This document shows, piece after piece, positions 10,371 through 37,792 of a stretch of DNA of 37,915 nucleotides. The notes beneath the pieces were generated by a model. The model had not been told where the DNA came from. It saw only the letters and a program-made list of their open reading frames with translations, and made no database searches. Positions within the stretch are counted from its first letter, which is position 1. The number at the start of each line of letters is the position of its first letter. The translations under genes and the position numbers were made by a program. Source of the DNA: Nitrospirota bacterium (GTDB taxonomy: Bacteria > Nitrospirota > Thermodesulfovibrionia > SZUA-242); assembly GCA_027021335.1 (NCBI GenBank), contig JALUUO010000088.1, positions 1-37,915 on the forward strand, written 5' to 3'.

Positions 10371-11204
10371 CTATATGAACTTCAGTTTTTCCGTCAAAAA
10401 TTTCTCTTTGAATTCGTTCACAAAGTTGAGAAGTTCCTCCTGGCTGATAATATTTGCTCCGTCCAGCTCTGTAGCCACAGGTTCGCCACCACCAATGCCC
10501 AGACTCTTGCATATACCGTCTGTAAGTTTAATTAATTCGCAAAGGGATGTATATTCCTTTTCTTCCTCAGGAATCCTGTCGGGGTAATGATGATAGGCTA
10601 TAGCTGCAATCAAAGATGGGGACAGCTTCCATTTTTTAGCTACAAGCTCTCCCACCTGACAGTGGTTAAAGCCGATTTCCGAGTCTTCAATCTCGTATGC
10701 GTGAACATTTTCGCTGTAGACTGTCTCAATAATATTGGAATATCTCTCCGGCATTCTGTTATTAATGACAACTTTGCCGATGTCATGCAGCAATCCTGCG
10801 GTAGCGGCCTCGTCTTGTCTTACCCCAAATTGCTTGGCAAGCATTCCGGCTGACATGGAAACACCCAGAGAATGTTCCCACGACATTTTTTCAAACAGCC
10901 CGAAATGTTTATAAACCTGTTTAATCGAAGATGCCAGCACCATATTTTTAAGGGTATCAAATCCCATCGTCATTACTGCGGCTTCAGCCGAATCGATTTG
11001 CCGTTTGCCCCCGGAATAAAATGAAGAGTTGGCAATGCGCAGCAACCGTGACACGACCGCCGGATCACCACTGATAACTTCTTGTAACTCTTGCAGTGAG
11101 CAGTTTGGCGACTCGATAAGCCGCATGACTTTGGCAGCAACCATTGGGACCGCCGGAATGTCCACTGTTTTTAGTATTATTTCATCGAGTGTATTGACTG
11201 ACAT
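10371..11204 (-). CDS. HDOD domain protein
   Basis: A 277-residue protein made almost entirely of one HDOD domain (about 12-210): Pro-Ala-Val-Pro near 17-20, Ile-Ala-Asn-Ser near 57-60 and His-Asp-Ile-Gly-Lys at 140-144. HDOD proteins are HD-fold relatives that usually lack nuclease or phosphodiesterase activity and act in signalling, often with c-di-GMP or chemotaxis systems; here the His-Asp pair is kept. A GGGAGG ribosome site precedes the ATG. It is the last gene of the chemotaxis block, 36 bases after motB, so it is probably made with the stator and Che proteins and may adjust their output. Confidence 0.85.
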   Translation of the reverse strand: MSVNTLDEIILKTVDIPAVPMVAAKVMRLIESPNCSLQELQEVISGDPAVVSRLLRIANSSFYSGGKRQIDSAEAAVMTMGFDTLKNMVLASSIKQVYKHFGLFEKMSWEHSLGVSMSAGMLAKQFGVRQDEAATAGLLHDIGKVVINNRMPERYSNIIETVYSENVHAYEIEDSEIGFNHCQVGELVAKKWKLSPSLIAAIAYHHYPDRIPEEEKEYTSLCELIKLTDGICKSLGIGGGEPVATELDGANIISQEELLNFVNEFKEKFLTEKLKFI

Positions 11205-12140: not shown

Positions 12141-12989
12141 TTACTTGTTTCTTAAGGCTTCCTCCAATTCTAAAAAGTCCGGTTTTCCATTACCGGAAAC
12201 CACTCTGCGCCCGAACTCCACGGCTACCTGTGGAGCACTGCCTCCCACAAAGGCTACCAGTGCTACTTTTATTATGTGGTACAAGATCGCACTTTCTCTT
12301 GCTTTGTACTCCAGGTTTGTGCCGATAGGACCCACAAAACCATATGCAAGCAATACCCCCAGAAAAGTTCCTACCAGGGCGGCTCCTATGCTGTGGCCAA
12401 GGACCTCCGGTGGCTCTGATATTTTACCCATAGTTATTACCACACCTAAAACGGCTGCGACTATTCCAAGGGCCGGCAGGCCATCGGCAATTCTGGTTAT
12501 CGCCTGGGCCGGAATCATTGCCTCTTCATGATGGCTGTCCAGCTCCATATCCATAACAGCTTCAAGCTCGTGTGGCGAAATATTTGTTGTCATAATAACT
12601 CTCAGGTTGTCACACAAAAAAGTTACAACATGATGGTTTTTAAGCAACCCGGGAGCTTGGGTAAACATCGGGCTTTCATGAGGGTTTTCCACGTCTTCTT
12701 CTATAGAGACAAGACCCTCCTTCCTGATTTTCGCAAATATACGATTCATCAAGGTAAGCAGTTCCAGGTACTGAGCCTTAGCTGGTTCTCCCCCGAAGAT
12801 AGTAGCTATTGTTTTAAGTGTCGTGAAGATGACACCAGACGGTGATGCAATAAAAAAAGATCCCAAAGCAGCACCCCCTATAATAAGAAGTTCTATGGGT
12901 TGATAGAGCACGTGCAGGTTGCCGTCCTCCAGGACATATCCTCCGACCACCGACCCAAGAACTACTATAAATCCAATGACTGCAAACAT
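12141..12989 (-). CDS. motA: Flagellar stator protein MotA
   Basis: A 282-residue protein with four membrane helices (about 1-20, 32-52, 170-190 and 200-222) and a cytoplasmic loop between the second and third that carries the charged residues contacting FliG. The ExbB/MotA pattern is clear: Asp-Gly-Leu-Pro-Ala-Leu-Gly-Ile-Val-Ala holds the functional proline, followed by Ala-Leu-Val-Gly-Thr-Phe-Leu-Gly. It forms the pentameric ring around MotB. The ATG shares one base with the stop of the PilZ gene (TAATG), so translation is coupled; this links a likely c-di-GMP sensor with the stator. Confidence 0.94.
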   Translation of the reverse strand: MFAVIGFIVVLGSVVGGYVLEDGNLHVLYQPIELLIIGGAALGSFFIASPSGVIFTTLKTIATIFGGEPAKAQYLELLTLMNRIFAKIRKEGLVSIEEDVENPHESPMFTQAPGLLKNHHVVTFLCDNLRVIMTTNISPHELEAVMDMELDSHHEEAMIPAQAITRIADGLPALGIVAAVLGVVITMGKISEPPEVLGHSIGAALVGTFLGVLLAYGFVGPIGTNLEYKARESAILYHIIKVALVAFVGGSAPQVAVEFGRRVVSGNGKPDFLELEEALRNK

Positions 12990-13546
12990 TACGACTGCTC
13001 TCTTTTGGCTCTGAGGAGCTCCCTCTGCCTGTCAAAAATATATCGCACTATTTCTTCCTGTATATCTTCGCCCATAGATATAAACTTGGCGGCTACGTCA
13101 TATTTGCCGCTCTCTTTTGGGCCTTCTGCCCTTAGTACCTCAGCATAGGCGCATATGGAAACCGGCGGGGAGCCGGGTAGTAGCATTTTTATCTCTACAA
13201 GATCTCCCTCATCAGGCTTTACAGACATAGGAAAATTAATGCCGCAAGCGCTTAGATTTACACTCTGGTTATCAAAACCTTCGAGGGAACTGTAGTCGGA
13301 AACAAGATGTTTTATCAGCAGGTCCAGCTTTGAGTTGATCGCTGCAAGGTAACGAAGGGTTTTGGAATCTTCTGTTTCATAGTCTTTGGATAAAAGTCTT
13401 TCAAGGGGTGCAGGCATTAACAATTCCCTTGCACGAACCGATTTTCTTTTTGCAGGATCGACTAAGTTTGCTTCAAGCCCAATAGTATCGTCAATCCTAA
13501 CGAATTCTCTTCTCTCACTATTATCAACTTTAGAATTATCAGCCAT
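12989..13546 (-). CDS. PilZ domain protein with long helical insertion (tPilZ-like)
   Basis: A 185-residue candidate c-di-GMP receptor. The RxxxR motif is Arg12-Arg16 and the (D/N)xSxxG motif is Asn97-Leu-Ser99-x-x-Gly102, but they lie about 80 residues apart instead of the usual 20-30. The insertion contains an amphipathic helix around 62-83 (Leu-Arg-Tyr-Leu-Ala-Ala-Ile...Leu-Asp-Leu-Leu-Ile). A similar layout is known in atypical tetramer-forming PilZ proteins. It is coupled to motA by a TAATG overlap and follows cheW by 23 bases, so it probably adjusts the motor or chemotaxis signalling to c-di-GMP. Confidence 0.75.
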   Translation of the reverse strand: MADNSKVDNSERREFVRIDDTIGLEANLVDPAKRKSVRARELLMPAPLERLLSKDYETEDSKTLRYLAAINSKLDLLIKHLVSDYSSLEGFDNQSVNLSACGINFPMSVKPDEGDLVEIKMLLPGSPPVSICAYAEVLRAEGPKESGKYDVAAKFISMGEDIQEEIVRYIFDRQRELLRAKREQS

Positions 13547-13569: not shown

Positions 13570-14013
13570 TTATACAAAAGACAGAACACCATCGTCTCCG
13601 AAAACCTTTTCCAAATCCAGCAGTATCAGCAAGCGGTCTTCCAGGCGGCCTACAGACTGAATGTATTCGGTATCCATACCGCCTTCCATTATGGGCGGCG
13701 GCGGTTCTACAACATCTTCGCTGAGTCTCAGTACCTCTGATACGCTGTCCACTAAAAGGCCCAGAGTTATGTTGTTTAGGTTTACCACAACTATACGTGT
13801 GTTATTGTTTTGCTCGGTTGTTGGCTTGTTGAACCTGGTGCGAAGATTCACAACAGGAATTACCTTGCCTCTGAGATTAATAACACCTTCCATATAGCCC
13901 GGCATTTTGGGTACGACAGTAATTTCAACCGTTCGAATAATCTCCTGGACTTTAAGTATATCCACGCCGAACTCTTCTTCATCCAGCTTGAATGTGACTA
14001 GTTGATAATCCAT
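13570..14013 (-). CDS. cheW: Chemotaxis coupling protein CheW
   Basis: A 147-residue protein of usual CheW length, a double SH3-like fold that joins chemoreceptors to CheA. Seen: Phe-Gly-Val-Asp-Ile-Leu-Lys-Val-Gln-Glu-Ile-Ile at 16-27, Gly-Val-Ile-Asn-Leu-Arg-Gly-Lys-Val-Ile-Pro-Val-Val-Asn-Leu at 43-57 (the receptor-binding groove), and Leu-Leu-Ile-Leu-Leu-Asp-Leu-Glu-Lys near the end. It lies between cheB and the PilZ gene on the same strand. Confidence 0.95.
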   Translation of the reverse strand: MDYQLVTFKLDEEEFGVDILKVQEIIRTVEITVVPKMPGYMEGVINLRGKVIPVVNLRTRFNKPTTEQNNNTRIVVVNLNNITLGLLVDSVSEVLRLSEDVVEPPPPIMEGGMDTEYIQSVGRLEDRLLILLDLEKVFGDDGVLSFV

Positions 14014-14080: not shown

Positions 14081-15139
14081 CTACACAGCATTTATAAGTT
14101 CACCGACCATAGTATCAATCGGAAGCACCTTGTCAGCAAGGTTATCATCTACCACTGCACGTGGCATACCGTAGACGACAGAACTTTCTTCGTCCTGGGC
14201 AAAAGCCTTTCCGCCGCTTTGCTTGATAGCTTTTATTCCGGCATGACCGTCATTACCCATGCCGGTGAGAATTACGCCAAGTGCTCTGCCGGGGTAAAAC
14301 TCGGCCACAGAGAGCATCAATTCGTTAACCGAAGGCTTGTAGAGAGCTGTTTTGGGTTCATCTGATATAACAACCCTGGTTTCAATAGCCCCGATTCGTT
14401 TTACCCTCATATGTTTTCCACCTGGGGCCACCAGAACAACACCCTGTTTGATTATGTCTCCATTTACGGCTTCGCGGATTTCCAGTTGGCTAATTTTATT
14501 TAAGCGTTGGGCGAACGTGCCTGTAAAGGCGGCCGGCATGTGTTGAGCCACTACGACCCCCACCGGAAGGTTGGCAGGCAGATAAGGCAGTATCTTCTGA
14601 AGTGCCATGGGGCCTCCTGTTGAGGTTCCGATAGAGATTATGCCTATGCGCCGCTGGCTGGTATAGGAGTCAAATTTTTTCGATAAGGTAGAGATATTAG
14701 GTCGTTTAACTGCTTGTCTTTTTACCGGCCGGCCCAGCTTCTTCTTTGCCAGCAACTTAACTTTTTTAAGCAGATCTTCCTTAACTTTAAGGATATTTAC
14801 CGACATCTCAGATAAATTTTTCGGGATAAAGTCCAGTGCGCCAAGTTCCATAGCTTCAAGAGTAACATTGGCCCCCTCACTGGTAAGAGAACTAACCATT
14901 AAAACCGGCGTAGGACGTTTTTCCATAATAAGCCTGAGGGCATCAAGACCGTTCATTTTAGGCATCTCGATATCCATGGTGACCAGGTCCGGCCGCAGTT
15001 GTACAGTTTTCTCCACCGCCTCACTGCCGTCACGCGCAGTATCGATTACAACAATATCCGGATCGCTTTCAAGCATCTGTTTGAGAGCCCTTCTCATAAA
15101 AGCCGAATCATCAACAACCAGTATGCGTGTCTGTTTCAT
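14081..15139 (-). CDS. cheB: Chemotaxis protein-glutamate methylesterase CheB
   Basis: A 352-residue response regulator with effector. The receiver domain (1-120) has the Asp10/Asp11 pair, phospho-acceptor Asp56 and Lys107. The methylesterase domain (about 163-350) has the Ser-His-Asp triad Ser173 (Gly-Thr-Ser-Thr-Gly-Gly), His200 (Gln-His-Met-Pro) and Asp297 (Gly-Asn-Asp-Gly). It removes methyl groups from, and deamidates, receptor glutamines, opposing CheR for adaptation. I start at the second ATG, which has AAGGA about 10 bases ahead; the first ATG, three codons earlier, has the same site too close. It lies 45 bases after cheA. Confidence 0.94.
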   Translation of the reverse strand: MKQTRILVVDDSAFMRRALKQMLESDPDIVVIDTARDGSEAVEKTVQLRPDLVTMDIEMPKMNGLDALRLIMEKRPTPVLMVSSLTSEGANVTLEAMELGALDFIPKNLSEMSVNILKVKEDLLKKVKLLAKKKLGRPVKRQAVKRPNISTLSKKFDSYTSQRRIGIISIGTSTGGPMALQKILPYLPANLPVGVVVAQHMPAAFTGTFAQRLNKISQLEIREAVNGDIIKQGVVLVAPGGKHMRVKRIGAIETRVVISDEPKTALYKPSVNELMLSVAEFYPGRALGVILTGMGNDGHAGIKAIKQSGGKAFAQDEESSVVYGMPRAVVDDNLADKVLPIDTMVGELINAV

Positions 15140-15184
15140 CCGTAACATCCTTATTTACTGAACACCGAGCACAGTTTGCCCGAA

Positions 15185-17029
15185 CTATGCCATTGCCGTT
15201 TGCATCATTTCTCTTAGCAAAACAGTTAAATCAACAATGAGAACTACCCTGCCGTCTCCTGTTATTGTAGCGCCTGCAATCCCCTCTTTTTCAGCATTCA
15301 AGCCCTTCATGTTTTTTATAACGATCTCCTCTTTTCCTATAAGCCGGTCTACCATAATCGAGAATTTTCGATCTCCGAGAGAAACAACCACAAGGTAAAC
15401 ATCGTCATTGCCTTCGGGAGTTATTTCAAGGCCTGAAACATCAAATACCCTGCCTAGATCCACTACAGGAATTACCTGGCCCCGCATGGTTATCACCGGT
15501 CTTCCATCGATGGTTTTTATATCCGAGCGGCGGAGTTTAAGTGTTTCGTTGACCGGTGAAAGAGGCAGTGCGTACGTTTGGTCTCCAACGCTCACCATCA
15601 ATGCCTGAACAATTGCAAGTGTTAGTGGAAGAGTGATCTTTATCCGAGTCCCCTTGCCTTTCTCAGTTGATGCTTCTACATATCCGTTTAAACGGGCAAT
15701 GTGAGTCTTGACTACATCCATTCCAACACCGCGCCCGCTTAATTCCGTCTGTTTCTCAGCCGTGGAAAATCCGGCCATGAAGATGAAGTCAAGCACCTGT
15801 TTATCATCCATCCTTGCCGCTTCGGCCTCAGAAACAAGACCCCTTTCAACAGCCTTTTGCCTGATACGTTCCAGCGGCATGCCCTTGCCGTCGTCCCGAA
15901 TCTCTATCAAAATATGATCGCCTTCCTGTGAGGCGTTCAACTCTATCTTTCCCGCACGGGGTTTTCCTGCTGCAAGTCGTTCTTCCGGAGGCTCTATGCC
16001 ATGATCAATCGTGTTTCGAATCATATGCACCAGTGGATCTCCCAACTCTTCGATCACTGATTTATCGAGTTCCGTATCTTCGCCGAAAATATGCAGTTCC
16101 GCCTCCTTGTTCAGCTTACGGCTTAGATCACGGACAATGCGGGGAAACTTACTAAAAACTTTGCGTACAGGCTGCATCCGGGTTTTCATAACCGCAATCT
16201 GCAGGTCTGTGGTTACAAGACTTATGAACGAGAGATTATCAAGAAGTACCTGTACATCTAGGTCATCCGGATAGCTCTTTTCAAGGCGTGATCCTATATT
16301 AATAAGCCGGTTCCTGCCCAGGACCATTTCGCCCACAAGGTTCATTACGGAATCAAGTCGTTTCACGTCTACACGAATGTTATGGGAAACCTCTTTTTCT
16401 GCTTTTTCCGCTTCATTTTTCTTTTGATCCAGGTTCTTCTGTTGGTTCAGGGCTTTTTGTACGAATTCAGGTTCTATACCTTTTTGGTCGATCAGAATCT
16501 CACCTATTTTCCTCTCTCGATCTTGTTCCTCGAGAGCATTGTCAAGATCCTCACGGCTTATTGTCTTTTCTTCCACCAGGATTTCGCCTATACGAGGTGT
16601 TGCTTCCGGTTCGGCATCAGGTGTTGACTGGCTGGGTTCTATCGCCGGCTCGGCAGCTGATTCCAGTACGCGAAGAAGAAGATCTATATCCTCCTGAACA
16701 CCATCTCTGGCTTTAACATGATCAATCAACACTTTTAAGGTGTCAACAGCCTTAAGAACAACATCGGTGATTTCCCGGGTTAAGCTCATTTCACCATCAC
16801 GAATCTTTTTAAGAAGTGTCTCTGCACGGTGTGACACATCGACTATCTGTTGAAAGCCAAGAAAACCGGCCGCCCCTTTAACAGTGTGAACCGAACGGAA
16901 TATCTCGTTTATAAGATCAGGATCTTCGCCGCGGCTTTCAAGATCCACAAACTTTTCATCCAGACCATCCAGCACTTCCTGTGTCTCAATGATAAAGTCG
17001 TTTATTATCTCTTCCATTTCATCCGGCAT
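15185..17029 (-). CDS. cheA: Chemotaxis histidine kinase CheA with MshEN-like linker
   Basis: A 614-residue kinase. Domains in order: Hpt with phospho-His48 (Ser-Val-His-Thr-Val-Lys-Gly); a linker with two MshEN-like motifs at 146-169 and 174-197; dimerisation helices at about 216-285; an ATPase domain with N-box His335-x-x-Arg-Asn...Asp-His-Gly-Ile-Glu, Asp-Asp-Gly-Lys-Gly-Met at 379-384 and Gly-Arg-Gly-Val-Gly-Met at 432-437; and a CheW-like domain at about 475-610. The usual CheY/CheB-binding P2 domain is not evident, so the repeated linker occupies its place. It phosphorylates CheY and CheB in response to receptors and sits between a cheY and cheB. Confidence 0.95.
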   Translation of the reverse strand: MPDEMEEIINDFIIETQEVLDGLDEKFVDLESRGEDPDLINEIFRSVHTVKGAAGFLGFQQIVDVSHRAETLLKKIRDGEMSLTREITDVVLKAVDTLKVLIDHVKARDGVQEDIDLLLRVLESAAEPAIEPSQSTPDAEPEATPRIGEILVEEKTISREDLDNALEEQDRERKIGEILIDQKGIEPEFVQKALNQQKNLDQKKNEAEKAEKEVSHNIRVDVKRLDSVMNLVGEMVLGRNRLINIGSRLEKSYPDDLDVQVLLDNLSFISLVTTDLQIAVMKTRMQPVRKVFSKFPRIVRDLSRKLNKEAELHIFGEDTELDKSVIEELGDPLVHMIRNTIDHGIEPPEERLAAGKPRAGKIELNASQEGDHILIEIRDDGKGMPLERIRQKAVERGLVSEAEAARMDDKQVLDFIFMAGFSTAEKQTELSGRGVGMDVVKTHIARLNGYVEASTEKGKGTRIKITLPLTLAIVQALMVSVGDQTYALPLSPVNETLKLRRSDIKTIDGRPVITMRGQVIPVVDLGRVFDVSGLEITPEGNDDVYLVVVSLGDRKFSIMVDRLIGKEEIVIKNMKGLNAEKEGIAGATITGDGRVVLIVDLTVLLREMMQTAMA

Positions 17030-17148: not shown

Positions 17149-17541
17149 CTAAGCCAGTCCGTGTTTTTCGAGGACCTTATCCATTTTTTCCTTAAGAATT
17201 TCTGCTGTAAACGGCTTAACAATGTAGTTGCTGACACCGGCTCCGATAGCTGCCATGATATTTTCTTTTTCAGATTCTGCAGTAACCATAAGGAACGGTA
17301 TCTCCTTTAACTGAGAATCATTCCTGACACTTTTAAGAAGTTCCAGCCCGTCCATTTTCGGCATGTTCCAGTCACTTATTATGAATTGAACCGGCTTCTC
17401 CCTTAATTTACTGAGAGCATGTTCTCCATCTTCGGCCTCTTCTATTTCCGTATATCCGAGCTGTTTAAGTATGTTTTTAACAATCCGTCTCATGGTGGAG
17501 AAGTCGTCAATCACCATAATTCTCATCTTAAGATCAACCAT
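17149..17541 (-). CDS. cheY: Chemotaxis response regulator CheY
   Basis: A 130-residue stand-alone receiver domain. Every functional residue falls at E. coli CheY numbering: Asp12, Asp13, phospho-acceptor Asp57, Thr87, Tyr106 and Lys109. Phosphorylated CheY binds FliM and changes flagellar rotation. The start ATG has GGGAGG upstream; a second ATG five codons in is less well placed. It lies one base after the other receiver gene and upstream of cheA. Of the two receivers in this operon, this one has the better claim to be the motor-binding CheY. Confidence 0.93.
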   Translation of the reverse strand: MVDLKMRIMVIDDFSTMRRIVKNILKQLGYTEIEEAEDGEHALSKLREKPVQFIISDWNMPKMDGLELLKSVRNDSQLKEIPFLMVTAESEKENIMAAIGAGVSNYIVKPFTAEILKEKMDKVLEKHGLA

Positions 17542-17542
17542 A

Positions 17543-17944
17543 TCAAGCGAGCCTCCCGGAAAAAAATTGTTTGAGTATATCCTTTACATTGTCAGTGACC
17601 ACATCTCCTGTCACAGGCTTTACCAGGTAGGCGGTAGCCCCTGCATCTTGGGCCATCTTTTTTTCCTCCTCGTCAGCCTCTGTTGAGATCATCATGACAG
17701 GAATATCGGCATAGTCAGGACTGGCCTTCAGGTTTTTGATTAGTTCGATCCCATCCATGTTCGGCATGTTTAAGTCGGTCATTATAAGATTCACCCGCTC
17801 TGTTGCCAGCTTCTCAAGAGCATCAAGTCCGTTTTCAGCCGTTACCACATCAAAGCCCTTCTGCCTGACATACATTCCAAGAATCTTTCTGGTTGTAGAG
17901 TCATCATCCACAATCAATATTCTCATTTTCATAACAATCATCAC
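17543..17944 (-). CDS. Second CheY-like response regulator
   Basis: A 133-residue stand-alone receiver with the acidic triple Asp13-15, phospho-acceptor Asp57, Ser87 in place of the switch Thr, Tyr106 and Lys109. It is clearly diverged from its neighbour (for example Asn-Gly-Leu-Asp-Ala-Leu-Glu instead of Asp-Gly-Glu-His-Ala-Leu-Ser). The ATG overlaps the cheR stop (TGATG) and has an AGGGG ribosome site. Tandem receivers in one che operon often divide work between motor binding and acting as a phosphate sink or adaptor; which applies here cannot be told from sequence. Confidence 0.85.
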   Translation of the reverse strand: MMIVMKMRILIVDDDSTTRKILGMYVRQKGFDVVTAENGLDALEKLATERVNLIMTDLNMPNMDGIELIKNLKASPDYADIPVMMISTEADEEEKKMAQDAGATAYLVKPVTGDVVTDNVKDILKQFFSGRLA

Positions 17945-18759
17945 CCCTTTTTATAGACGACAGCCTTGTTTATAGCCATCGGCTTGAATGCCCTTGAGAC
18001 AGAGTGCAGACTCTCAGATGCTCCCACAAAAAGATAACCTCCAGGGCTTAGAGAGTCATAATAAAATGAAACAACTTTTTGCTTTACACTATTATCAAAA
18101 TAAATCATTGTATTACGGCAGAAGATGAAATCCATTCCTCGTACTCCACGCATCGCCCGTTCGTCTGTCAGGTTCATCTCTTTGAATTGCACCAATTTTT
18201 TTACTGTTGGAGATACTGTGAGACCTCCGGCTGTTTTAGTAAAATATTTTTTCAGAAACTCCGGTGTTGCATTACGAAGGGAATAATCTCCGTAAACAGC
18301 GCGCTTTGCACTTGCTATTGCGTCACTGCTTAGGTCTGTGCCAAGTATCTTGGCATTGCTTCGGCCTCCGCTGTACTCGAGCAGATACATGGCCAGGGTA
18401 TATGGTTCTTCTCCTGTTGAACACCCGGCAGACCAAATGTTTATCGGTTTTCCTGCTTTGGATTTTGACACCTGTGGCAGAAGCACTTTGTAAAAGGCCT
18501 CAAGAAGCAGCGGCTCCCTGAAAAAACTTGTTTCACGTGTTGTAATAAGGTTAAACAGTTGTGTCTGCTCGTTTTTGTCGTATTGAAGCAAGTAGAGATA
18601 ATCTTCGAAACTCCTCAGATTTTTTTCTTGTAAACGTTTTTGCAGACGGTTTTCGACCAGGTATTTTTTTGTGTCCTGAATGTAAATACCACACTTGCTG
18701 TAAATATAGTCCCGTGCCTTATGAAATGTTTCGTTAGAAAGTTTTACAGAGTTGAACAT
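17941..18759 (-). CDS. cheR: Chemotaxis protein methyltransferase CheR
   Basis: A 272-residue S-adenosylmethionine-dependent enzyme that methylates receptor glutamates. The N-terminal helical domain (1-75) has Thr-Thr-Arg-Glu-Thr-Ser-Phe-Phe-Arg at 73-81. The SAM-binding loop is Trp-Ser-Ala-Gly-Cys-Ser-Thr-Gly-Glu-Glu-Pro-Tyr at about 109-120, and Phe-Cys-Arg-Asn lies at about 213. No TPR extension or pentapeptide-binding insert stands out. Its ATG shares one base with the stop of the HEAT-repeat gene (TAATG), so the two are translationally coupled. Confidence 0.94.
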   Translation of the reverse strand: MFNSVKLSNETFHKARDYIYSKCGIYIQDTKKYLVENRLQKRLQEKNLRSFEDYLYLLQYDKNEQTQLFNLITTRETSFFREPLLLEAFYKVLLPQVSKSKAGKPINIWSAGCSTGEEPYTLAMYLLEYSGGRSNAKILGTDLSSDAIASAKRAVYGDYSLRNATPEFLKKYFTKTAGGLTVSPTVKKLVQFKEMNLTDERAMRGVRGMDFIFCRNTMIYFDNSVKQKVVSFYYDSLSPGGYLFVGASESLHSVSRAFKPMAINKAVVYKKG

Positions 18760-20609
18760 TAGTTTGTTTCCTCTGCTTCCATGGATTCGATAGCGTAGAT
18801 CGCTTCGTCTCTTACAAGAGGATCGGTATCTTTAGTGTATTTGGATAAGTCCTCTTTGGTTCCAAATCGTCCTAGGTAGCGTACGGCCGCGATTCTAACC
18901 GGACCTTCTTCCCGAACGGCAAGCAACTTACGCACAGCACTTACAGCCGAAGGCTCATCAAGATCCGCCAGTGCGTCGATTGCGAACATCTTCACCCACA
19001 TATCCTTATCCGACAGGCACTTTACAAGAGCTTTGCGGCAGCCTTTGTCTCCGATTGCACCTAGTCCACGAACAGCAGCCTTACGCACTTCCACTTCCGT
19101 ATCGGTTATAAGTTTAGCGAGTATTTCTCCAGCCTTAGGATCATCGTCCTGGCCAAGCGACAAAACAGCAGCAACTCTCACGTCAGAATCCTTATCACGG
19201 ACCAATGGCAGCAGTTCTTTCCCACGCGCAAGACGTGCAATAACCTGCCTTACAGAGTTTTTCTTGCTTTTAGTCAGACGGCCAAGCACAGACTCATCCA
19301 GGGAAACAGCAGCTTCAATGGCATCTTCAAGCACGTCCGGATAAGTTTCTTTACGAATAATATCCAGCAGCGCAGGCAAGGCCTTCTTTTCACCTATTCT
19401 GCCCAGGGCACGTGCTGCGGATCTGCGAACATGGCCGTCTTCATCTGTAAGTCCGTCACCCATCAGACCGGTGGCAGATGCATCTTCGGCAATATTGGCC
19501 TGAGCCCGTGCAGCGGCGCGTCGAACCTCCCGCTGAGGACTTTTCAGACAATTCAAAAGAGGTTTTACTGCTATCCGGCTTTGAAGACTTCCCAACGCAT
19601 CTATAACAGCTACTTTTGCCCGGTATTTAAGTTCCTTATTTTTTTCAAGAAGACGCGCAAGTCCGGCAGCGTCACCTATGTGAACTATAGCCTCCATCAA
19701 CACCCTGTAGAGTTCTTCCTCCTCAGGATTGGACGCATCCTGAGCACCGGCAAGTTCCACCATTAGGGCGACGGCTTTCGCGGATTTTAAATCTGTAAGA
19801 CCTTGTGCGGCAATGATTCTATCCTCGTGCCCGCCGCTTTTTAATAAATCCATAAGCACGGATTCCAGGCCCATGGTATTGCTGATACCGATTCTAACCA
19901 GGCTCTTGGCAACCAGTTTTTTTTCTTCGCTATTCACCTTCTCCAAAGTGTTGAATAACGCGCTGGTTGCAAGCGGCGACCTTATTTCTCCCAATGCTTC
20001 TATCGCCATGGTTTTTAACGGCAGCGATGGTCCGTCAAGCAGAGAAGTTATGGCGTTTACCGCCTCTTCATCAGCAATATTTCCAAGCGCCTCGACAGCG
20101 CCGAAGGCGACCCATTCCTCGTCCTCCAAAAGTCTGACAAGATGCGGAACCGCCTCCTTTACGCCCAACATACCTAGTGACTTTGCAGCAGAGGCGCGCA
20201 CGTTGGCATTTTCGTCTGAAAGAGCCTCTATAAGAGGAGGCACCACCTGATCACCGCCCACAACTCCGAATACATCGGTCAGGAATTTTCTGACATCCGG
20301 ATCCTTGTCTATAAGCATTTTAGCCATAAATGGTACAACCTTGGGGCCGATACGAGTCAGAATTTCTATCGCCATGTTGCGTCTGGGAGCGTCTTCTCTC
20401 AAAAGAGGCAGCACCGCCCATACGGTTGCCTCATCCGCAAAACTTGACAGAGAGTTTACAGCCGCTTCCTGCACACCCGGACTTTCATCCCATAGGGATT
20501 TAATCAGGGGGTAGATGGCTCGGCCGTCTGTTTCTCCTAGCCTTGCCGCTGCATCACGGCGCACAGAGGAATCTTCAGATTCAAGCTGTTTAAGCAACTC
20601 TTTGATCAT
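18759..20609 (-). CDS. HEAT-repeat protein, first gene of the chemotaxis block
   Basis: A 616-residue protein made almost wholly of HEAT/PBS-lyase-type helical repeats of about 30 residues, with signatures such as Asp-x-x-x-x-Val-Arg-x-x-Ala-Ala-x-x-Leu-Gly recurring from residue 12 to 610 (roughly 18-20 copies). No catalytic domain, signal peptide or membrane segment is seen. Such solenoids bind other proteins. It lies behind a sigma-28-type promoter and is coupled to cheR by TAATG, so it is made with the Che proteins. A scaffold or receptor/CheR adaptor role is inferred. I start at the ATG at 20607-20609; a TTG two codons upstream is equally open. Confidence 0.85.
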   Translation of the reverse strand: MIKELLKQLESEDSSVRRDAAARLGETDGRAIYPLIKSLWDESPGVQEAAVNSLSSFADEATVWAVLPLLREDAPRRNMAIEILTRIGPKVVPFMAKMLIDKDPDVRKFLTDVFGVVGGDQVVPPLIEALSDENANVRASAAKSLGMLGVKEAVPHLVRLLEDEEWVAFGAVEALGNIADEEAVNAITSLLDGPSLPLKTMAIEALGEIRSPLATSALFNTLEKVNSEEKKLVAKSLVRIGISNTMGLESVLMDLLKSGGHEDRIIAAQGLTDLKSAKAVALMVELAGAQDASNPEEEELYRVLMEAIVHIGDAAGLARLLEKNKELKYRAKVAVIDALGSLQSRIAVKPLLNCLKSPQREVRRAAARAQANIAEDASATGLMGDGLTDEDGHVRRSAARALGRIGEKKALPALLDIIRKETYPDVLEDAIEAAVSLDESVLGRLTKSKKNSVRQVIARLARGKELLPLVRDKDSDVRVAAVLSLGQDDDPKAGEILAKLITDTEVEVRKAAVRGLGAIGDKGCRKALVKCLSDKDMWVKMFAIDALADLDEPSAVSAVRKLLAVREEGPVRIAAVRYLGRFGTKEDLSKYTKDTDPLVRDEAIYAIESMEAEETN

Positions 20610-20723: not shown

Positions 20724-20750
20724 TTATCGGCAGAAACATTTTGTTTATTA
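20724..20750 (-). promoter_or_regulatory. Sigma-28 (FliA) promoter of the HEAT-che-mot block
   Basis: Read on the minus strand: TAAT, 15 bases, then GCCGATAA. The -10 element matches the flagellar sigma-28 consensus (TAAA-N15-GCCGATAA) at 8 of 8 positions and the -35 at 3 of 4, with exact spacing. Transcription would start near 20716, giving a leader of about 105 bases to the HEAT gene. fliA itself is the gene just upstream. Confidence 0.75.
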
Positions 20751-20779: not shown

Positions 20780-21538
20780 TTAAAACCCCACTTTTTCTCT
20801 AGAGCCCTTCAACACCTCAACCTTATCCCTAAGACGTAGAAGCGCCTGAGCATTAAGCTGGCAAACCCTGGATTCTGTCAGACCCAGCACAGCCCCAATC
20901 TCTTTCATGGTCATTTCTTCATAGTAGTAAAGAGTCATAACAAGACGTTCTTTTTCCGGAAGACTATCTATCTGCTTTCCGAGAATGGTTTTCACCTCCA
21001 GCAGGTCCATGGCTGCTGCCGGACCTCCCTTCTGTTTGTCTGATATACATTCCATGATATCCATATCTCCATCTCCTCCATGCGGCAGTAGATCCTCAAA
21101 GTTTAGAAGCACCGACATACCGGCTTCACTTGTCTGCTTATGAAACTCCTCGAGACTCAGACCCAGGTAATCAGCCACCTCGTCCTCTTCCGCATGTCGT
21201 CCCAGTCTTTTTTCTAGGACCGAGTAGGCTTTCTTTACATCGGCCATTCTCTTCTTCATCCCCCTTGATCCCCATTGCATAGAGCGAATCTCATCAAGCA
21301 TAGCTCCTTTGATTCTGAATTCTGCATAAGTGGTAAGCCTTGCATTCCGTGAAGCGTCGTACTTATCCATCGCGTCTATAAGGCCGATAACTCCAACACT
21401 TATCAGGTCATCCATGCTTAGGCCTGTCGGCAGCGTAGCGCTTAGACGGGAAGCCAGGTATTTAATCTTAGGGATAAACTCCTGAACAAGAAGATCTCTC
21501 TCCCTCTCTTTCTCTTCGGTGTTGACAGAGACGCTCAT
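20780..21538 (-). CDS. fliA: Flagellar sigma-28 factor FliA
   Basis: A 252-residue sigma factor of the sigma-28 class, which directs RNA polymerase to late flagellar, motor and chemotaxis genes. Region 2 runs from about 20 to 95 (Asp-Asp-Leu-Ile-Ser-Val-Gly-Val-Ile-Gly-Leu, then Thr-Tyr-Ala-Glu-Phe-Arg-Ile-Lys-Gly-Ala-Met-Leu-Asp-Glu-Ile-Arg). Region 3 follows, and region 4 ends with Gly-Leu-Thr-Glu-Ser-Arg-Val-Cys-Gln-Leu. The start overlaps the flhG stop by four bases. A downstream promoter with the matching consensus suggests a direct cascade. No flgM (anti-sigma) gene is in the window. Confidence 0.95.
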   Translation of the reverse strand: MSVSVNTEEKERERDLLVQEFIPKIKYLASRLSATLPTGLSMDDLISVGVIGLIDAMDKYDASRNARLTTYAEFRIKGAMLDEIRSMQWGSRGMKKRMADVKKAYSVLEKRLGRHAEEDEVADYLGLSLEEFHKQTSEAGMSVLLNFEDLLPHGGDGDMDIMECISDKQKGGPAAAMDLLEVKTILGKQIDSLPEKERLVMTLYYYEEMTMKEIGAVLGLTESRVCQLNAQALLRLRDKVEVLKGSREKVGF

Positions 21539-22383
21539 GCTGAAATACCTCCAAAAATTCTTCTGAAAAAGAACTGCATTCCGCCTTTTACCTCAGGAAC
21601 GGACTCGTTCTGAAGGGCACGGCCTACGGCCATGACATCTTTCGAAACCTGGGCACCAGGATAACGCTCCAGGAAAGAGTTCTGACTGCGAACCGCCTTG
21701 GGCACCAGGGGATCATTCGAAAAGTAACCAAGATAATCAAGAGATACGTTTAAAAACCTGTCAGCTACGAGGGAAAGTCTGCGAAAGGTTTCAAGAGCGT
21801 CGCTAGAGCCGGAAGCCATATTAACGAGAACTCTGAACTTGCGTTCGCCGTAGTTCTGAGACATCACTTTTACAAGAGCATAAGCATCTGTTATAGATGT
21901 TGGCTCTGGTGTGACCACAACAATGATTTCCTGAGAAGCCTCACAGAAAAACAGGACATTTGATGCAATTCCTGCTCCTGTATCAACCAGCAAGATATCA
22001 ATGTCTTCATCAAAATCGTCAAGTTCTCCCAGGAGTTTTATCTTTTGCTCCTCGTTAAGGTGTGTAAGCCACTGGCTGCCTGAGCTGGCCGGCAGAATCC
22101 GTACATTTTGAGGACCGTTGACCACGACTTCGGAAAGCCTTCTTTCGCCCGCAAGAACATTCTCGATATTGTACTTAGGGCTGATGCCGAACAGGACGTC
22201 TATATTGCTCAAGCCCAGGTCAGCATCCAGAATCATAACCTTCTTGCCTTGACGGGCAAAGTAGAGAGAAAAGGCTCCCACTATGTTGGTCTTGCCCACG
22301 CCCCCTTTACCGCTGGTCACGGCGATGACCCTGGTGGCTTTCTGTATTTTCATCTTCTCGGGCAAGACAGACTCTTCTATCAT
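21535..22383 (-). CDS. flhG: Flagellar number regulator FlhG (MinD-like ATPase)
   Basis: A 282-residue ParA/MinD ATPase with the deviant Walker A Gly-Lys-Gly-Gly-Val-Gly-Lys-Thr at 25-32, Asp-Ala-Asp-Leu-Gly-Leu-Ser-Asn at about 54-61 and Val-Asp-Thr-Gly-Ala-Gly at about 112-117. FlhG (YlxH/FleN) stimulates the FlhF GTPase and limits the number of flagella. The N-terminal extension is short, without the Gln-rich DQAxxLR activator helix in a clear form. It overlaps flhF by four bases (ATGA) and fliA by four, so the three are tightly coupled. Confidence 0.93.
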   Translation of the reverse strand: MIEESVLPEKMKIQKATRVIAVTSGKGGVGKTNIVGAFSLYFARQGKKVMILDADLGLSNIDVLFGISPKYNIENVLAGERRLSEVVVNGPQNVRILPASSGSQWLTHLNEEQKIKLLGELDDFDEDIDILLVDTGAGIASNVLFFCEASQEIIVVVTPEPTSITDAYALVKVMSQNYGERKFRVLVNMASGSSDALETFRRLSLVADRFLNVSLDYLGYFSNDPLVPKAVRSQNSFLERYPGAQVSKDVMAVGRALQNESVPEVKGGMQFFFRRIFGGISA

Positions 22384-34048: not shown

Positions 34049-34633
34049 CTATTTAAGATCAGGCTGATACATCAATTTATGATCCATCTTGTATGTCCAG
34101 GGCAGGCCTTCAAGGCGCCATCCGCCAATCATTCGTTTTCCGTAATTTGGGCTGTTTTTATCCTTCACCTTATCTCCTTCAAAGCCGCCAAGCACGTTAA
34201 ATACTTTATCTTCCTTAAATCCGCAATCAACCGCAGCTGTTGATGAAGCGACCGTTCTTTTTGCGCTTCGGCATAGCATCAGCAGAGTGTCTGTTTCTGT
34301 ATTGAACCTTGCTTTCAGGTCTCTGCAGAAGTTCTTATTCAATACTTTTTTATATCCACGTTTACCAACCTTGGTGGTCAAAAACAGCCATGGAATATTG
34401 TAAGCGCCAACAGGATGACCGATATCCTGGTACTCGGACCTGGTTCTTACGTCCACCAAAAAGGTATGTTTCGGGTCTTTTTTAAGCATCTCATAGGCCT
34501 CTTTTGGCGTTACGTCTCCACCTTTGTGCTTTCCCTTGATCGGATATTTTTCCTGACTGGAGGCAAAGGCGAGTGAACTGAAAGCAAACCCAAGAACCAA
34601 CGTCAACAGCAATGTTTTTTTCACCTGTTTCAT
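34049..34633 (-). CDS. Exported rhodanese-like sulfurtransferase
   Basis: A 194-residue protein with a signal peptide (hydrophobic 8-21, Ala-Phe-Ala-Ser cleavage region) and one rhodanese domain. The domain starts at Val-Asp-Val-Arg-Thr-Arg-Ser-Glu-Tyr, and its active loop is Cys-Arg-Ser-Ala-Lys-Arg near residue 120, a normal persulfide-forming cysteine. It would move sulfane sulfur or act as a redox/thiosulfate enzyme in the periplasm. The ribosome site AAGGAG is good. The 146 bases upstream hold an inverted repeat, a TTGACA box and a sigma-28-like site. It diverges from the TusA-like gene and may work with it, although they act on opposite sides of the membrane. Confidence 0.85.
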   Translation of the reverse strand: MKQVKKTLLLTLVLGFAFSSLAFASSQEKYPIKGKHKGGDVTPKEAYEMLKKDPKHTFLVDVRTRSEYQDIGHPVGAYNIPWLFLTTKVGKRGYKKVLNKNFCRDLKARFNTETDTLLMLCRSAKRTVASSTAAVDCGFKEDKVFNVLGGFEGDKVKDKNSPNYGKRMIGGWRLEGLPWTYKMDHKLMYQPDLK

Positions 34634-34778: not shown

Positions 34779-34805
34779 TTATCGGCAATATTTGTTAACA
34801 TATTA
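34779..34805 (-). promoter_or_regulatory. Sigma-28-like promoter facing the rhodanese gene
   Basis: On the minus strand TAAT, 15 bases, GCCGATAA: identical in both elements and spacing to the site before the HEAT-che block. The leader to the rhodanese start would be about 140 bases. A lone GCCGATAA is expected about once by chance in a window of this size counting both strands, so this is a candidate only. Confidence 0.45.
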
Positions 34806-37738: not shown

Positions 37739-37764
37739 TACTTTAGTGCTCCCTATGCCGTCTC

Positions 37765-37792
37765 TAAAGCTGGTTATATATATTGCCGATAA
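37765..37792 (+). promoter_or_regulatory. Sigma-28-like promoter at the right edge
   Basis: TAAA (37765-37768), 16 bases, GCCGATAA (37785-37792): both elements match the flagellar sigma-28 consensus fully, with spacing one base over the optimum. It lies in a non-coding gap just after the DsrE gene and points at a frame opening at 37857. Confidence 0.6.

Follow-up and report, generated by a model that had tools for sequence, protein, structure and literature searches.

Organization of the HEAT-cheR locus

The window, a 37,915-nt stretch of DNA, comes from a Nitrospirota bacterium of the class Thermodesulfovibrionia, and not from Desulfobacterota, where the earlier note had placed the host. Its minus strand carries a flagellar and chemotaxis operon in the order flhA-flhF-flhG-fliA-HEAT-cheR-cheY1-cheY2-cheA-cheB-cheW-PilZ-motA-motB-HDOD. 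The HEAT-repeat gene (18759..20609), an ORF with its ATG at 20609 and its TAA at 18761-18759, encodes a protein of 616 aa. Upstream of it lie fliA for the sigma-28 factor (20780..21538, family profile matches) and flhG (21535..22383, Pfam and homology). The stop codon of the HEAT gene and the start codon of cheR (17941..18759, chemoreceptor methyltransferase by Pfam and by similarity to solved CheRs) share one nucleotide in a TAATG motif (18757..18761), an arrangement expected to couple their translation and already recognized in the earlier note. Two single-domain response regulators, cheY1 (17543..17944) and cheY2 (17149..17541), and the histidine kinase gene cheA (15185..17029) follow, all assigned by Pfam. 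The methylesterase gene cheB (14081..15148) was assigned by homology searches and its receiver and methylesterase sequence, and cheW for the coupling protein (13570..14013) by its ORF translation and homology searches.

Two further genes of the operon were recorded. A PilZ-domain protein (12989-13546, minus strand) is encoded between cheW and motA and is a candidate c-di-GMP motor brake or MapZ-like CheR regulator. An HDOD protein (10371-11204, minus strand) is encoded last in the che operon; in the Desulfobacterota loci L187, L189, L192, L194 and L199, an HDOD gene lies between the HEAT gene and cheR.

A sigma-28-like site, TAAT-N15-GCCGATAA (20724..20750, minus strand), matches the consensus 122 nt 5' of the HEAT ATG and is a putative promoter, with a perfect -10 element and one mismatch in the -35 element. 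It is not a one-off, because nearly perfect or close TAAAGTAAT...TCCGATAA sites precede the HEAT homologue in the loci of five relatives (L010, L012, L017, L022 and L023). Many other relatives yielded no site of this kind before the homologue, and the gene directly follows flhG-fliA there. The description of the HEAT gene as the first behind a sigma-28 promoter therefore suits this genome, by consensus match, but not the family as a whole.

Two other sigma-28-like sites were observed in the window. One (TAAAGC...GCCGATAA; 37758-37792, plus strand; 0 mismatches, spacing 16) lies near its end. Just past the window, the contig encodes a chemoreceptor signalling domain (C88:38397-38867), which is what one expects of a late flagellar gene. 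The other, with a perfect GCCGATAA (34779-34805, minus strand), precedes a rhodanese-like ORF (34633..34049) by ~150 nt; this ORF would be an unexpected member of the flagellar regulon if the site is functional.

Predicted fold and conserved signature of the HEAT protein

Pfam assigned HEAT/ARM-type repeats alone across the full length of the protein (HEAT_2, 5e-81; HEAT_PBS, 1e-32). An AlphaFold2 model built from a 23-sequence alignment (mean pLDDT of 93.5, pTM of 0.74) contained 40 helices arranged as 20 hairpins and no other domain. By both analyses the protein is a HEAT-repeat solenoid, with tandem two-helix hairpins forming a superhelix, in agreement with the 18-20 repeats and nothing else that had been counted in its 616 residues. 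The best Foldseek matches of the model were SF3B1, PP2A-A, importins and alphaRep, all of them generic HEAT solenoids, and designed alphaReps were the closest solved sequences.

The best NCBIfam names for the protein were NblB and CpcE, which could be taken to indicate an enzyme relative of the phycobilin-lyase/NblB type or an unrelated HEAT protein that travels passively with the operon. The repeat type is indeed the same as in the HEAT_PBS proteins NblB, CpcE and alphaRep. However, these have no che association, and the equivalog cut-offs were missed by far (124.6 vs 300 and 122.6 vs 330 bits for NblB and CpcE, respectively), which refutes the phycobilin-lyase annotation. As che linkage is also conserved over two phyla, as described below, we consider this explanation hardly credible.

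Alignment of 143 family members, 414 to 692 aa in length (the shorter ones 414-475 aa), revealed a signature in residues 75-169 (20103..20387, minus strand), corresponding to repeats 3-6: R77-N78 ... F109 ... N136-V-R ... W166. N136 is retained in 143/143 members and N78, F109 and W166 in ~142/143, from both operon types and both phyla, while R77 and G146 are each 99% conserved. All signature residues are present in the window protein, as proposed for a CheR-linked HEAT family. Some of the conserved D, R and W positions presumably reflect the general HEAT consensus, to which, to our knowledge, N78, F109 and N136 do not belong. By DSSP analysis of the model, the signature residues open consecutive B helices in repeats 3-6, and HEAT geometry suggests that together they line a single stretch of the inner face of the superhelix. 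A second conserved motif, D-x-D-G-H-V-R, occupies residues 388-395 in repeat 13 (19425..19448, minus strand).

Conservation of the HEAT-cheR pair

A scan of contigs from 84,980 species yielded 80 HEAT loci that were kept. Wherever the contig extends past the HEAT gene (79/79 loci), the next recognized gene was cheR, so the adjacency is not peculiar to this genome, the outcome that the earlier note had named as fatal to its proposal. The pair cheY1-cheY2 followed cheR in 77/80 loci. On the 5' side, fliA was found in 56 loci and an inverted fliR in 14, and these two contexts show that the HEAT-cheR-cheY-cheY block survives rearrangement. Likewise, the best 22 homologues among 40 relatives all preceded cheR-cheY1-cheY2, with one contig ending short of cheY2.

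Pooling both searches gave 103 loci, in which some genomes appear twice (83 of the 89 loci with all four genes are distinct). With every junction treated alike, using the start codon closest to the stop, the HEAT and cheR ORFs overlapped in 82/102 loci, mostly by 4 or 7 nt, and lay no more than 10 nt apart in 100/102. The corresponding overlaps were 8/101 for cheR-cheY1, 27/99 for cheY1-cheY2, 8/75 for cheY2-cheA and 1/70 for fliA-HEAT. The tight overlap is therefore a trait of the HEAT/cheR pair and not of the operon, and the directly adjoining cheR with overlapping or nearly overlapping ORFs is what we propose, next to the signature, as the mark of the family. HEAT and cheR were never in the same frame in the 103 loci, and no natural HEAT-CheR fusion was seen; the long frames among weaker matches in the fusion search appeared to be HEAT-only.

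Co-occurrence with flagella, a paralogue and a second phylum

Among 160 genomes of the class, the HEAT gene was present in 85/95 with FlhA vs 2/65 without it (Fisher p of 4e-31, with genomes counted as independent and kinship ignored). The ten flagellated genomes lacking it comprised six with a paralogue beside cheR-cheB, one with a contig edge, two that are fragmentary, and G149. The last has FlhA and carries cheR genes without a HEAT neighbour (L122, L128 and L134), and it appears to be the only clear exception among genomes of the class, a natural knock-out.

This tracking of flagella, the position behind flhF-flhG-fliA in most genomes and the elongated 20-repeat solenoid would all suit a structural scaffold of the receptor array, the flagellar pole or the motor, with no specific enzyme partner and with the cheR adjacency serving co-expression only. 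A paralogue argues against it. The window genome has a second che operon, cheA-cheW-mcp-mcp-cheW-HEAT(692 aa)-cheR-cheB-cheY, in which the HEAT gene again lies directly before cheR despite the different gene order. The che operons of this paralogue contain no flagellar genes and often occur in genomes without the flagellar HEAT copy. Moreover, cheR is retained in the block when flagellar genes are rearranged, and members of 414-475 aa indicate that the length is not fixed. We thus regard a pure scaffold as improbable. No che genes were found near the other HEAT_2-matching proteins of the window genome.

The family recurs in Desulfobacterota, where the earlier note had proposed to look for HEAT genes beside cheR. 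This phylum was entered via a Syntrophorhabdaceae contig, and 56/247 genomes matched a two-family profile at 1e-40. The HEAT genes were located in che clusters in 48/49 loci and within 1.6 kb of cheR in 44/49, in several gene orders; 3/49 loci were from genomes already in the contig scan. In one Desulfobacterota genome, two clusters (L210 and L211) have the HEAT gene flanked on both sides by cheR.

Two other explanations of the gene order were rejected. A passenger or chance adjacency is inconsistent with the conserved cheR neighbour, the ORF overlap and the recurrence in Desulfobacterota. Generic synteny of flagellar operons as the sole cause is inconsistent with the persistence of HEAT beside cheR despite upstream rearrangement and in the second-type operons.

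CheR and its receptors

The window CheR was most similar to Pseudomonas CheR1 among solved structures, and it lacks the 3-residue loop of Salmonella CheR, which presumably places it in the pentapeptide-independent class. No NWETF-type tail was found among the receptors of the window genome. A CheR of this type together with receptors lacking such tails makes a trans-acting tether or regulator plausible. About 90% of receptors are without a pentapeptide (PMC7390727). Two receptors of the same genome (L167 and L168) have similar, acidic tails, ...DDEFEKY and ...DDEFERA, and the EFEKY tail fits the x-[aromatic]-x-x-[aromatic] pentapeptide pattern, which speaks against the CheR-partner reading proposed below.

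R16, D17, E76, Q85 and R162 were common to HEAT-linked CheRs and infrequent among the CheRs of this class that have no HEAT link, although these residues may mark descent or a CheR subfamily rather than contact. HEAT-linked CheRs formed one tree group, with a support of 86 in one sampling and 7 in another, so that the grouping is only suggestive of co-inheritance. The partial correlation of tree distances with HEAT was highest for CheR (0.57), followed by CheY1 (0.42) and CheY2 (0.25), and the shortness of the CheYs alone lowers their values.

Proposed role of the HEAT protein

Between the operon types, the surroundings of the HEAT gene vary: the system is flagellar or of another kind, either cheY or cheB lies downstream, and the upstream gene is either fliA or cheW. 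FliA, the motor proteins and CheW are thereby disfavoured as the constant partner, and CheR remains. The genetic association is strong, and from it we infer, with confidence divided about evenly, that the HEAT protein is a dedicated partner of CheR and either positions the methyltransferase or regulates it. The earlier note had suggested a stoichiometric partner of the chemotaxis machinery with CheR as the first candidate; the association is borne out by adjacency, overlap and flagellar co-occurrence, and by its recurrence both in another che system and in another phylum, and CheR is the putative binding partner.

In the proposed mechanism, the HEAT protein would be made in step with CheR through translational coupling and would fold as a 20-hairpin superhelix. 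A conserved groove formed by repeats 3-6 (residues 77-169), within the N-terminal third, would hold the constant partner, most likely CheR, while the remaining solenoid, variable in length, could extend to another component, either of the array or of the motor. The protein would thereby bring CheR to the receptors in trans or tune its activity. In other systems this task falls to the C-terminal pentapeptide of receptors, to MapZ or to TPR domains that are fused with CheR.

The main rival is a CheY effector, in which phosphorylated CheY1 or CheY2 would bind the solenoid and act on the motor or another target, or would use it as a phosphate sink. The near-constant cheY1-cheY2 pair behind cheR suits this idea, as does the Cpc7-CheY7 precedent in Myxococcus (PMC11514114). 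In addition, four Desulfobacterota loci have HEAT-cheY-cheY2 without cheR within about 5-10 kb, and the HEAT signature was retained in the three of them that were checked. However, the conserved ORF overlap involves cheR and not cheY, the second-family operons read cheW-HEAT-cheR-cheB with no adjoining cheY, and the tree correlation was lower for the CheYs. A CheY effector is accordingly rather unlikely in our estimate.

The four cheR-less loci are nevertheless the chief difficulty for a CheR partner and leave room for CheY binding, or for a protein that takes both as partners. A solenoid holding CheR and CheY could alter CheR activity with the signalling state, a feedback of CheY-P on methylation for which CheC-CheD-CheY in Bacillus is the model. 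Such feedback would reconcile the constant cheR coupling with the cheY-only loci, and CheD was present in only 6/25 genomes searched, so that CheD-based feedback is not general here. On the other hand, binding of two partners is a supposition, and CheD and a CheC-like match are present in the window genome itself, making this scheme decidedly improbable.

Returning to the dedicated CheR partner, we put forward a broader version only tentatively, as we think it probably goes too far. The solenoid would carry CheR in trans, link methylation to the signalling state or array position, and take the place of the pentapeptide as a tether in both Nitrospirota and Desulfobacterota, as a widespread, undescribed adaptation component common to flagellar and second-type systems. 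Few signalling pathways are regarded as better understood than chemotaxis, whose list of parts is taken as settled. If true, a CheR-tied HEAT solenoid would be an extra part in its adaptation arm, and the link would bear on how CheRs reach pentapeptide-less receptors. The taxa concerned are many Desulfobacterota and almost all Thermodesulfovibrionia with flagella, the magnetotactic Magnetobacterium among them.

Comparison with known systems

The cheR-linked HEAT family is real and conserved, and its members probably function as solenoid accessory proteins of chemosensory systems. It is apparently undescribed: no account of such a family in bacteria was found in the open literature, and neither the 2008 Geobacter survey nor the 2010 survey of che operons in 206 species mentioned HEAT. 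In Pseudomonas, MapZ, a small PilZ c-di-GMP receptor, acts on CheR1. It resembles the proposed arrangement as a separate accessory protein for a CheR of the window type, whereas its PilZ fold is unrelated to that of the HEAT protein. Judged by its separate ORF, its HEAT rather than TPR or PilZ fold, its bacterial gene context and its NblB/CpcE scores under the cut-offs, the window protein falls into none of the known groups compared here.

The earlier statement that no standard chemotaxis role exists for such a protein holds for bacteria but must be qualified by two functional precedents, OE2401F (PMC2666748) and Cpc7 (cited in PMC11514114). OE2401F of Halobacterium salinarum is a HEAT_PBS protein of the che/fla region with CheD and OE2402F, a CheF protein, as binding partners, and its deletion abolishes switching and taxis (PMC2666748). 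Like the window protein, it consists of HEAT repeats only and is encoded in a chemotaxis cluster. Unlike it, OE2401F belongs to an archaellum system, adjoins the archaea-specific CheF (DUF439), is confined to haloarchaea in PMC2666748 and has no reported cheR coupling. The window ORFs form a bacterial flagellar/che operon in which the neighbours of HEAT are fliA and cheR.

Cpc7 of Myxococcus xanthus is a HEAT-repeat protein that binds CheY7 (Darnell et al. 2014, cited in PMC11514114). Like the window protein, it is part of a chemosensory cluster. Its physical partner is the single-domain CheY7, and it differs from the window protein in controlling development and not flagella. We know of no cheR overlap for Cpc7.

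A helical-repeat solenoid attached to a chemoreceptor methyltransferase is also seen in the CheR-TPR fusions FrzF and WspC, and the TPR part of FrzF limits methylation (PMC3447774). The window HEAT protein and CheR are separate ORFs, and the CheR matches only CheR and general methyltransferase families in Pfam, with no TPR. The CheR-TPR proteins are fused, have 1-4 repeats and serve mostly alternative-function systems, whereas the HEAT protein is separate, has 20 repeats and is found mostly in flagellar operons.
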